From positions 186,001-250,000 of the forward strand of contig JAZDSV010000011.1 in the NCBI GenBank assembly GCA_036784855.1: DNA of 64,000 nucleotides. Direction: 5' to 3'. The translations under genes were made by a program, and so were the position numbers. Source of the stretch: Aphelidium insulamus (Eukaryota > Aphelidiomycota > Aphelidea > Aphelidiaceae). The notes beneath the pieces are model-generated. The model was given only the letters and a program-made list of their open reading frames with translations. It did no database searches and was not told the DNA's origin. Shown one piece after another: positions 45,235 through 50,984 of the stretch (its first letter is position 1; each line of letters opens with the position of its first letter).

Positions 45235-46389
45235 ATGCGCGTCCTGCTTCTTACTGCGATATGGACTGCTATTTGTGCCGCGCCGCCCGGGAAACGGCCC
45301 TGCGTGGATGTGTGTGAGCATCACGATGGCACTGCCCTTTTTTCCACACTGCCGCAGCCGGTTCTCTGCTCGATATTGGGCTACGGCGGGCCGAGAAACG
45401 CGCTCTACACGTGTCTGGTGTCGAGGTCCATGCTGTCGGCACACCGCGCAGAATATCACGACTGCAAATTACTGACGAGATATTCTGCAGCGGCGGGCAG
45501 TACAAGCACCATCGACTTTGCACTGGCCACTGGAGCACCACTGACGAAGCTGGCCGTGGCTGCTTGCGAACAGGGATCTAGCATCGCCGTTCTGGCGCAC
45601 ATCAACGCGCGTCAAAAGGGAATATTCGAAACCTCTACGCGGTACAGTCATGCAGCGGCATCTGCAGGCAGTGTGGCGGTGCTGGAGTGGCTCAAACGTG
45701 CTGGTGCTCCATGGGATGCCAAAACATGTGCCAATGCAGCCGGAAAGGGGCACCTGTCAACTCTGCAATGGCTGCGGCACAATGGCTGCCACTGGGACAG
45801 GCGCACTTGCGACGAGGCGGCCTTCGGCGGACACGTGAACATTATAAAGTGGGCACGTAGCCAGTCGTGCCCGTGCACCTACCGTACGTGGACAAAAGCC
45901 GCAGCTGGTGGCCACGTTGCAGTGCTACAATATGCTCACAGCCGGTCGGAACATCTCAGCGCGGAGGCCTGCGCCGCTGCTGCTTGCTATGGACAAATCG
46001 ACGCGTTGCGGTATCTCATACACACTGTCGGATGCCGATGGCATGAAGATATTTGCACAGCTGCCGCGCGAGGCAACCAGTTGGATGTTTTGAGGTGGGC
46101 ACACGACCAGGGCTGTCCGTGGGATGGAGAGGCATGCAATCACGCGGCACTGAATGGCAACCTGCAAACACTGCAGTGGCTTCATGCGAATGGGTGTCCG
46201 TGTGGTGAAGACACTTGCGAGTCTGCAGCTAGAGGCGGTCACCTGGCCGTACTGCAATGGTTGCGCAGTGTTGGCTGTGAGTGGGATGATTTGACATGCG
46301 CGGCCGCAGTTCAAACCGGTCACTGGGAGGTGTTCAGATGGGCGCAGGAGAATGGCTGTCCATGGTGGGATTGTGTCGATTTGGATTGA
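45235..46389 (+). CDS. CPWD ankyrin-like repeat protein with signal peptide
   Basis: Single exon, 384 residues. Residues 1-15 (MRVLLLTAIWTAICA) look like a signal peptide. Residues about 36-80 (FSTLPQPVLCSILGYGGPRNALYTCL) resemble an F-box-like helical region. From about 130 to the end run some nine repeats of about 27 residues with the pattern AAxxGHLxxLQWLRxxGCPWDxxTC. This repeat type is known from large expansions in several protists, chytrids and giant viruses, and is usually annotated as ankyrin. The close relatives at 46,991 and 49,959 show a local family. Function unknown. Confidence 0.82.
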   Translation: MRVLLLTAIWTAICAAPPGKRPCVDVCEHHDGTALFSTLPQPVLCSILGYGGPRNALYTCLVSRSMLSAHRAEYHDCKLLTRYSAAAGSTSTIDFALATGAPLTKLAVAACEQGSSIAVLAHINARQKGIFETSTRYSHAAASAGSVAVLEWLKRAGAPWDAKTCANAAGKGHLSTLQWLRHNGCHWDRRTCDEAAFGGHVNIIKWARSQSCPCTYRTWTKAAAGGHVAVLQYAHSRSEHLSAEACAAAACYGQIDALRYLIHTVGCRWHEDICTAAARGNQLDVLRWAHDQGCPWDGEACNHAALNGNLQTLQWLHANGCPCGEDTCESAARGGHLAVLQWLRSVGCEWDDLTCAAAVQTGHWEVFRWAQENGCPWWDCVDLD

Positions 46390-46525
46390 CAGAGTTGTTG
46401 TTGTGCATTGACTTGAGTCTCTTCAGGTGCTTGAAGTGGATATATGGCGACCCGCGCTTGCATATATGGAGCGTTGCCAGGCCACCGCCTGACTACTTAG
46501 GACAGCTCGGCAACCAAGTACCGTC

Positions 46526-46765
46526 GTGTTAGATTCTACTAGCTGTGGGTGTCTGCGTCCTGTTGGTCTTGACACTACTAAAGAATCCACGCGACAGGTA
46601 AATATAAGGTGTTAGATTCTACTAGCTGTGTGTGTCTGCGTCCTGTTGGTCTTGACACTACTAAAGAATCCACGCGACAGGTAAATATAAGGTGTTAGAT
46701 TCTAGTAGCTGTGTGTGTCTGCGTCCTGTTGGTCTTGACACTACTAAAGAATCCACGCGACAGGT
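46526..46765. repeat. 83-bp tandem repeat, 2.9 copies
   Basis: Units start at 46526, 46609 and 46692 with GTGTTAGATTCTA and are nearly identical (one or two substitutions each); the third is cut short. It lies between two CPWD-repeat genes. Confidence 0.92.
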
Positions 46766-47344
46766 TTCGCGGGCACCGCAGCGTTTAACAGAGCCAGTGT
46801 CGAGGTTGTTTGCACCCAACCCTCACTGTTGGTAAAAACTTTTAATATACAAACAACAATGAATTAAATCGGTTAAGGCGATTGCGGTTAAGGTCTTTCA
46901 ACCACGTCAACCAATCAGTAAGAGTATTATTACGCTGATTGGATAGCTCTCTGCTGATTTCCGCGATTAATTTATTGATTGGGAAATCGTATGATTTTCC
47001 GGTTGGCGGTGATTGCGGCCTGGTTGGCACTAACTTGCAGGGCAACGGCCATACGGGAACCGGGCAAGGAAGCGCACTCAAATGCCAACAATGAAATGCC
47101 GCTAGCCAGACGCGCCGTGGATGCGCTGCCCGTCCATGCCAGCGATGGCAGTAAAGTGGCCCGTAAAGATACCTTGTCATTTCAGTCGATACCAGAGTAC
47201 GTGACCTGCACAATATTAGGCTACTGCGGTCCGGAAAGCGCGATATTCACGTGTCTTGCATCGAGGTCCATGCTACTGGCATATCGCACCGAGTATCGTG
47301 GCCGCATTCTGCACACTCGATACTCAGCTGCAGTGTGCAGCACA

Positions 47345-47349
47345 AGGAC
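47345..47349. repeat. Target site duplication, left copy
   Basis: AGGAC immediately before the LTR; its partner is at 47970-47974. Confidence 0.85.
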
Positions 47350-47969
47350 TGTAACAAGGGCCAGGGGCTCCTTGTGCCGTTGGTACCCGGTACAGAGTAG
47401 AGGCGAGCAGAGTGAGATCACGAACCTTGTGCCGTTGGTACGCACGGCAGTATGAGAGCGAGCAGAGTGAGATCACGAACCTGTGACGTGTCAGATGGAC
47501 ACAGTCTGACCGTCACGGCGGACCTTGTGCCGTTGGTACCCGGTACAGAGAGTAGGCGAGCAGAGTGAGATCACAAACCTATAGGCTCAGCAGTTGATAA
47601 TGAACGTATTTATTATATACCTGTGACGTGTCAGATGGACACAGTCTGACCGTCACGGCGGACCTTGTGCCGTTGGTACCCGGTACAGAGTAGAGGCGAG
47701 CAGAGTGAGATCACGAACCTATAGGCTCAGCAGTTGATAATGAACGTAGATCAACTGCTGGGCTTTCCGACTCCAATGCCGTATTTATAGCCGATATGGC
47801 GTCCGACGCCTCCCCAGGGTTGGTGTCCAACGCCTCCTCTCGCTGAGCGCTTTCCGGTTGCCAATCCGCGGTTACCGGCGCGACGAAAGATTCCCGAACT
47901 GTCGGTACCGGATGAGTCATAATGACGTCATCGGCGCTAAGCTGACACGGAGTACAGCTCCGTGTTACA
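47350..47969. mobile_element. Solo LTR of an LTR retrotransposon
   Basis: The element starts TGTAACA and ends TGTTACA, a 7-bp terminal inverted repeat with TG...CA ends, and is flanked by 5-bp direct repeats AGGAC (47345-47349 and 47970-47974). No coding sequence for protease, reverse transcriptase or integrase lies inside, so it is a solo LTR. Internally, a motif of about 53 bp beginning GTGCCGTTGGTAC is repeated four times. A dyad (GTGACG...CGTCAC) occurs twice, and near the right end are an AP-1-like TGAGTCA (47914) and a CRE TGACGTCA (47923). The family (gypsy or copia) cannot be told from an LTR alone. Confidence 0.87.
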
Positions 47970-47974
47970 AGGAC
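47970..47974. repeat. Target site duplication, right copy
   Basis: AGGAC immediately after the LTR, identical to 47345-47349. Confidence 0.85.
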
Positions 47975-48746
47975 TATCGACTTTGCATTGTCCACTGGAG
48001 CACCACTGACGCAGCTGGCCGTGGCTGCGTGCGAACAGGGATCTAGCGTGGAAATTCTGGAGCACATAAACTCGAGGTTGAGGGGAATATTCGAGACATC
48101 TTTGCAATACAGTCACGCCGCCGCATCCGCAGGTAGAATAGCAGTGCTAAAGTGGCTCAAAAGTGCCAACGCACCCTGGGATGCGGAAACGAGTGCCAGT
48201 GCAGCCAGAAACGGGCACCTGTCCGCCCTGCAATGGCTGAGGTCTGCAGACTGCCCGTGGGACACCGGCACCTGCAGCAAGGCGGCGCGCAATGGTCATT
48301 TGGAGTGCTTGGAGTGGGCTCATACCAATGGCTGTCCATGTAATCACGAGACTTGTGCTCATGCCGCCTCTAATGGGCACCTGGCAGTGCTGCAGTGGCT
48401 CCGCCGTCAGGGCTGTCCGTGGGACGACGCTACATGTCATGAAGCGGCACGAAACGGTCAACTGGATGTGCTCCAATGGGCAAAGGCCGCCGGTTGTCCG
48501 TGGAGTGCAGTCACTTGTGCAAATGCTGCACGCGGCGGCCACTTGTATATTCTACAGTGGCTGCATGCCAATGGCTGTCCCTGGAATGCATGTACTTGTT
48601 CAGCGGCCGCAAGTGGTGGCCACATGGCCGTGCTGCAGTGGCTAAGAGCGCACGGTTGCCCATGGGACAGTCACACTCGCATCAAGGCTCAAGCGCGCGG
48701 CCACTTGCACGTGGTTCAATGGGCGTGGGCCAATGGATGTCAGTAG

Positions 48747-49958: not shown

Positions 49959-50984
49959 ATGGAGAGTCTGGATGACGCCAGGATGGCCGACATACTGCCC
50001 ATCACATTCTCATATCTCCCCGGACGCGGCGCGTACATCCGCGCAGTGTCACGCCTGTTCCGCGCCGTGTATGAACAGACGCACCCGACTACGTGGCGTA
50101 GGAATCACTTGGCCTCCATTGGGCAGACAGTGGAGGCAGTGCAGCACGCTCTCCAGTGTGGTGCCAACAAGGACGCGGTTATAAAATACGCCATGTCCTG
50201 TGGTGATACGGAGCTGGCCGAGTCCGTGATGTGTACCGGTGCACAGCTGACAGATGCCAAGCTGTACTACGCAGCTGCTCGCAATGGACATCTGGCTGCC
50301 GTTCAGTGGGTCCACGACAAGGGGCTGCCGTGGGACGAGTGGCTGTGCTCCAAGGCAGCGGAAGGCAGACACTGGGACATTGTTAGATGGGCGCGCCAGA
50401 ATGGGTGTCCGTGGAACTCGTGGACGTGTCGCGGTGCTGCCATCAGCGGTGACTTTGTCGAGCTGCAGTGGCTCAGGCAGCAGGGGTGTCCGTGGGACTG
50501 GGACACGTGTGCCGGTGCTGCTGGTGGCGGGCACTTGCACATTCTGCAGTGGTTGCGCGACAATGGGTGCCAGTGGAACAAGTGGACGTGCACATGCGCC
50601 GCCGAGAATGGCCACCTGGATATGCTGCGGTGGGCACGTGACAATGACTGTCCGTGGGATGAGTGGACGTGTGCGTACGCGGCGCAGAACGGACACCTGG
50701 CCGTGTTGCAGTGGGCGCGCAGCCGCGGTTGTCCCTGCGATGAAGAGACGTGTGTCAGGGCTGCACTCAACGGGCACCTGGATGTGCTGCAGTGGGCTCA
50801 CGGTAATGGATGCGCGTGGGACAGTAGGACATGCAGCAGTGCGGCATTAAATGGCCACCTGCAAGTGCTGCAGTGGGCGCGAGCTCACGGGTGTCCATGG
50901 GACCGAGAGACCACCGCGAAGGCCGCCACGAACGGGCACTTAGTGCTGCTAAAGTGGGCCCGCGAGAATGGTTGTCCAGAATAG
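49959..50984 (+). CDS. Cytosolic CPWD ankyrin-like repeat protein
   Basis: Single exon, 341 residues. It is the third local member of the CPWD family but has no signal peptide. Residues 1-40 (DILPITFSYLPGRGAYIRAVS) form an F-box-like helical start. From about residue 105 eight or nine 27-residue repeats follow, for example NGHLAVLQWARSRGCPCDEETC. It may recruit partners through the N-terminal motif, as F-box ankyrin proteins do, but this is inference. Confidence 0.85.
   Translation: MESLDDARMADILPITFSYLPGRGAYIRAVSRLFRAVYEQTHPTTWRRNHLASIGQTVEAVQHALQCGANKDAVIKYAMSCGDTELAESVMCTGAQLTDAKLYYAAARNGHLAAVQWVHDKGLPWDEWLCSKAAEGRHWDIVRWARQNGCPWNSWTCRGAAISGDFVELQWLRQQGCPWDWDTCAGAAGGGHLHILQWLRDNGCQWNKWTCTCAAENGHLDMLRWARDNDCPWDEWTCAYAAQNGHLAVLQWARSRGCPCDEETCVRAALNGHLDVLQWAHGNGCAWDSRTCSSAALNGHLQVLQWARAHGCPWDRETTAKAATNGHLVLLKWARENGCPE

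Follow-up and report, generated by a model that had tools for sequence, protein, structure and literature searches.

The window analysed here is a 64,000-nucleotide stretch of the genome of the aphelid Aphelidium insulamus (G000:C12:186001-250000), and it contains a cluster of ankyrin-repeat genes, one of which is interrupted. An intact member at 45235-46389 on the plus strand encodes a 384-residue protein with ankyrin repeats. The interrupted gene, a paralogue of this neighbour, lies on the same strand in two halves. The first half (46991-47349) has a signal-peptide-like start by eye and comprises 119 whole codons and 2 bases, and the second half (47976-48746) encodes 256 residues of ankyrin repeats followed by a stop. 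The repeats of both genes, called "CPWD" repeats in an earlier note on this DNA, are ankyrin repeats by Pfam (PF13637, Ank_4; 5e-19 for the second half and 5.8e-17 for the neighbour), and at E 0.001 no Pfam family matches the first half by itself. A third ankyrin-repeat gene of 341 residues, with no signal sequence by eye, belongs to the same cluster at 49959-50984.

Just upstream of the broken gene lies a second dispersed repeat (46443-46843) that includes three 83-bp tandem units (46526-46774). This repeat has 57 matching stretches in the genome, each with one to several units. The match stops no more than 5 bases from position 46843 in 13 of the 14 loci compared, several of which overlap, and other copies extend further left; the repeat may be a truncated non-LTR-like element. 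The segment directly after it, 46844-46932, has matches elsewhere in the genome too, including on C18 and C2, so the broken gene is preceded by a patchwork of repeats.

Between the two gene halves is a 620-base insert that occupies 47350-47969 exactly. It starts with TGTAACA (47350-47356) and ends with TGTTACA (47963-47969), which form a 7-bp terminal inverted repeat, and AGGAC flanks it on the left (47345-47349) and on the right (47970-47974). A 5-base flank match of this kind has chance odds of about 1 in 1024 per site. The earlier note had described these TG...CA ends and flanks, and all of them are exact. It had also claimed that removing the insert and one AGGAC copy returns the gene to a single frame. 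This holds by counting, with the halves not actually joined: division by three leaves 2 of the 359 coding bases in the first half and 1 of the 625 bases in the insert plus one duplication, and the two halves therefore share a phase. The proposed match of the junction to the intact neighbour was borne out as well, since in separate alignments to the neighbour the first half reaches residue 90 and the second half picks up at residue 93.

In its present state the gene yields at most a truncated product. The frame that opens at the ATG at 46991 continues into the insert and stops at 47455, giving 154 residues. The ankyrin half is in frame from 47976 to the TAG stop at 48746, and it has no nearby in-frame ATG, the earliest being at 48624. 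We infer a loss of gene function. The earlier note suggested that the insertion may be polymorphic; a search of the assembly with both halves found no second allele of either. Between the paralogues, dN and dS are 0.27 and 0.75 over 141 codons and 0.30 and 1.34 over 54 codons; dN is below dS in both halves, so the gene family was under constraint. With the neighbour as the query, 206 stretches of the genome match, a number that includes the neighbour's own and often counts one gene several times. The loss of one gene from so large a family is probably of little consequence.

We searched the genome (17.95 Mb in 169 contigs) with the insert as the query and obtained 41 matching stretches, including its own, so the further copies that the earlier note had proposed to search for are present. 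We then scanned 19 of 20 fetched loci, that of the window included, for both LTR ends placed 200-900 bases apart, and found them in 13 of the 19. Four of these 13 have element interior on one side: C143, C152, and C2 on the side of the primer site described below, and C154 on the other side, which is the same flank as that of C2's far LTR. The other nine stand alone. Six of them have exact 5-bp flank duplications (C12, which is the window copy, C99, C107, C22, C87, and C160); the flanks of C93 match at 4 of 5 bases, and those of C10 and C109 do not match. A longer copy on C105 has ends 1.83 kb apart, three mismatches in the end motif, and CCCAC on both sides. A preference for genes as targets was considered and rejected. 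Among seven stand-alone copies (the six with exact duplications and the 4-of-5 copy), only that of the window interrupts one gene when border frames of at least 70 residues on both sides and on one strand, making one gene, are sought; the border frames of L003 and L014 lie on other strands or on one side only.

The interior next to the LTR-like copies identifies the parent element. In C152, the LTR is followed by three successive open frames with matches to gag/capsid and protease, to reverse transcriptase (RT), and to RNase H and the integrase zinc-binding domain, and this is the Ty3/gypsy order of protease, RT, RNase H, and integrase. The integrase zinc-binding domain scores 68.6 bits, and the core domain scores 31.1 bits, just below the Pfam cut-off of 32.6. 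For C2, where the scan was restricted to the frames of four domains, the matches are gag/capsid, protease, RT, and a chromodomain (PF00385, 2.2e-17). C2 has the chromodomain at the end of integrase that characterizes chromoviruses; the three C152 frames scanned have none, so it is present in one of the two copies. The parent element also has a match to a Tf2-1-like SH3 domain (PF24626). A 2.3-kb RT-to-integrase DNA query from C152 finds 31 stretches in the genome; compared with this query, C2 is 99% alike, C142 is 73% alike, and C154 is broken. In a tree of 13 RT-integrase rows, which includes neither Tf1 nor sushi and has weak deep branches, the element groups with three environmental sequences. 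The complete element with two such LTRs that the earlier note proposed to look for was found in part. Long copies with interior exist, and their second LTRs are incomplete, that of C152 being a 196-base fragment and that of C2 being cut by the contig end.

At the window locus, the target site is duplicated and element interior is present on neither side, while a like sequence borders element interior elsewhere (C152 and C2). LTRs of this kind border a Ty3/gypsy interior that in one copy includes a chromodomain, so the insert is a solo LTR of a chromovirus. The ends, the genomic copies, the flanks, and the frame arithmetic agree on what the earlier note had read from one sequence, namely a solo LTR with a target duplication that disrupts a gene. 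A point absent from that note is the orientation: the LTR query reads against the direction of the parent element, which puts the window LTR on the minus strand and makes it antisense to the interrupted gene.

Read on the minus strand, the LTR contains a predicted promoter and a predicted self-primer. The putative TATA box TATAAATA is at 47782-47789 (element positions 181-188), and the candidate primer AGTTGATCTA is at 47747-47756 (element positions 214-223), starting 33 nt after the start of the TATA box. These positions would place U3 at 47757-47969 and R-U5, which contains tandem repeats and an AATAAA at 47609-47614 (minus strand), at 47350-47756. With both the TATA box and the primer preserved, the LTR could act as a promoter for antisense transcripts that run into the gene's first half. 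In C152, C2, and C143, the LTR is directly followed by TAGATCAACTCACAAA and then ATGG. Directly after the LTR stands the presumed primer site TAGATCAACT, 10 nt long and complementary to AGTTGATCTA inside the LTR; by sequence, the primer site thus pairs with the predicted 5' end of the element's own RNA, as in the Tf1/sushi group, with C2 lacking part of the arrangement.

Several observations bear on whether this complementarity is meaningful. A genome pattern search for such primer sites found five (C2, C105, C142, C143, and C152) against one match in the reversed control, and when the LTR was resampled 5000 times (first order), 6 of the resamples contained a 10-nt match to the first 18 nt after it. 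The relative on C142, 73% alike in pol DNA, has TAGATAGACT with AGTCTATCTA: two changes on each side, with all ten pairs kept and the primer likewise 33 nt from the TATA box. A scan of seven pieces for the whole arrangement recovered primer and site in C142, C152, and C143 and printed nothing for C2, C22, and C87. The absence of C2 is explained by its 5' LTR, which aligns only to LTR positions 1-402 and 465-620, so that the gap covers the TATA box and part of the primer. For C105, the six rows returned by the scan are other repeats, yet primer and site are both readable there. In the pieces fetched from the divergent relatives C22 and C87, no LTR or primer site was recognised. A multi-duplex structure at the 5' end of the RNA is a mark of the Tf1/sushi group, and of the two leader folds computed here, one supports self-priming and the other does not. 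The predicted fold of the C152 leader RNA is closed by the primer pair (z -3.39).

It is quite unlikely, in our estimation, that the complementarity is a coincidence and that the element is primed instead by an internal tRNA fragment. Half-tRNA primers are known from other LTR elements, although the accessible text of PMC6317226 describes them for Ty1/copia alone. In its minimum-energy fold, the C142 leader lacks the primer pair (z 0.81), which counts against self-priming, and C142 has a second 10-nt match without a TATA box, so a length of 10 nt is not decisive by itself. Against coincidence, two element families agree in the position of the site directly after the LTR, in its 10-nt length, in the 33-nt TATA spacing, and in two compensating changes. 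Moreover, a primer site for a tRNA 3' end is expected to start with TGG, and the site here does not. The complementarity and the compensating changes point most likely to Tf1/sushi-like self-priming of the parent element. In the C142 piece L078 (G000:C142:1-1300), the related LTR also has tandem repeats in its predicted R-U5, among them a repeat of the bases that come directly after the predicted RNA start, here preceded by AATAAATA; by eye, the layout resembles that of the window LTR.

The tandem repeats of the window LTR are four 58-bp units at 47370-47427, 47425-47482, 47523-47580, and 47663-47720, and each unit carries one variable stretch of about 20 bases. Within these stretches, a comparison of the window LTR with other copies gives 15 differences in 78 positions for C143, 21 in 80 for C99, and 28 in 80 for C152. 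Among those three copies themselves, 17 of 78 variable-stretch positions vary, compared with 0 of 540 elsewhere (p about 1e-16, a value that is too favourable because the cassette borders were set after looking). If one unit is counted a single time, the comparison of C99 with C152 gives 3 differences in 20 positions, compared with none in 540. Ten copies have at least two recognised units: in four all units are uniform (C99, C154, C152, and the C2 5' LTR), three have one deviating unit (C107, C22, and C87), and the window copy, C143, and C93 are mixed. The unit 2 variant of the window, searched as a 30-base pattern, has no other genome match within 3 mismatches. One cassette variant can occur in copies that differ in U3: between C87 and C152 there is 1 difference in 40 cassette positions, and there are 11 in the 215 positions of U3. 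Reassortment between R-U5 and U3 during reverse transcription would explain part of this pattern, but not the near-constancy of the rest of R-U5. A more far-reaching reading, which we regard as unlikely, is that the R-U5 cassettes change much faster than the surrounding LTR, often with one change repeated in several or all units of a copy. This would be a locally focused diversification of the retrotransposon leader; template switching among co-packaged RNAs and escape from host small RNAs are two ways in which it could arise.

The earlier note judged the insertion recent because neither gene half carries another lesion. That argument is weak, since only about 0.46 stop codons are expected per 1% of neutral divergence; the conclusion is supported instead by the near-identity of the LTR to other copies. 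Over all positions, the window LTR differs from C143 at 16 of 618, and 15 of these differences are inside the four variable stretches. Outside them, it differs from each of C143, C99, and C152 at 1 of 540 positions and has no private base among 12 aligned copies. Few differences together with no private bases support a recent insertion. Twelve apparently private bases of the window LTR were also considered as a measure of age; ten are in unit 2 and two in unit 3, and because they sit in repeat units, they were not used for dating. A tally of unmatched bases across all repeat units was set aside because it mixes units.

An older insertion, into a gene that had already become a pseudogene, has a low probability by our reckoning. 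In its favour are the low number of expected stop codons, which makes zero extra lesions a weak sign of youth, and the chance that short-read polishing homogenised the repeat copies and inflated their near-identity, if the assembly is the hybrid Nanopore-Illumina one reported in the accessible text of PMC10608142. It is opposed by the 0 of 540 private bases and by the open frames of both gene halves. Private bases are present in C22 (32 of 537) and C160 (14 of 421), so divergence between copies has not been erased in general.

Taken together, these data make it very probable that an ankyrin-repeat gene received a minus-strand insertion of a Ty3/gypsy chromovirus, which LTR recombination then reduced, the parent most likely being self-primed. 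The insertion would have duplicated AGGAC, and recombination between the two LTRs would then have removed the interior and left one 620-bp LTR; the parent element would use the 5' end of its own transcript to prime reverse transcription, as Tf1/sushi elements do. That the 620-bp segment is instead an intron, possibly LTR-derived, of a working gene whose protein is still made is highly improbable: GT and AG do lie at the LTR borders (the start is TGTAAC, and AG follows the last base), but the GT-AG pair 47351-47971, the only one examined, removes 621 bases (remainder 0) where the frame needs remainder 1, and copies of this sequence between duplicated flanks occur at other loci, so an intron is not needed to account for it.

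The insertion of a chromovirus and its reduction to a solo LTR have familiar counterparts. Solo LTRs consisting of a single LTR with a 5-bp duplication in an interrupted gene occur in fungi and plants, and the window case differs from them in nothing essential; the gene disruption is ordinary, and the parent element is likely an additional member of a known, self-primed kind of chromovirus. The searched literature on aphelid retrotransposons and Amoeboaphelidium transposable elements, a coverage that leaves out most subscription papers, contains no description of such an element. What began as a guess from a single read of the sequence is now a traced element, with its parent family, orientation, and predicted promoter and priming site located.

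Ty3 of budding yeast is alike in the sequence of RT, RNase H, and integrase, and its Gag-Pol (7q5b) is the best solved relative by sequence (1.3e-88). Ty3 is tRNA-primed and targets tRNA genes. For the element described here, a run of ARAGORN on 13 LTR loci of 2.4-3.6 kb detected no tRNA gene, and tRNA-gene targeting was rejected on that basis.

The chromoviruses of the Tf1/sushi group (Tf1, Tf2, and Tj1) share more with it: the Ty3/gypsy domain order, the chromodomain after integrase (in one copy here), the Tf2-1-like SH3 match, and a primer site after the 5' LTR that pairs with the start of the element's own RNA, which is a prediction here. The comparison differs in that self-priming is deduced from sequence in our case. 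Aphelids are parasitoids of algae and a sister group of fungi (PMC10608142, accessible text). The Hsp70 of this genome fits an aphelid host: among the 120 matches listed, out of 7991 candidates scored, a transcriptome protein reaches the highest identity (91%) and Amoeboaphelidium occidentale the highest of the named ones (89%), and longer chains with 70-84% identity, mostly from animals and plants, score higher than both. A self-primed chromovirus in an aphelid, if true, would mean that priming of the Tf1/sushi type reaches down to the base of the fungal branch and would bear on whether this mode is ancestral or spread sideways. According to the accessible text of PMC6317226, self-priming is predicted for the majority of Tcn1-clade elements in mosses and club mosses and not for other plant chromoviruses. 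In the accessible parts of PMC10085805 and PMC4600332, it is common to the Tf1/sushi group, whose hosts are given there as fungi, vertebrates, and mosses; the host here is an aphelid.
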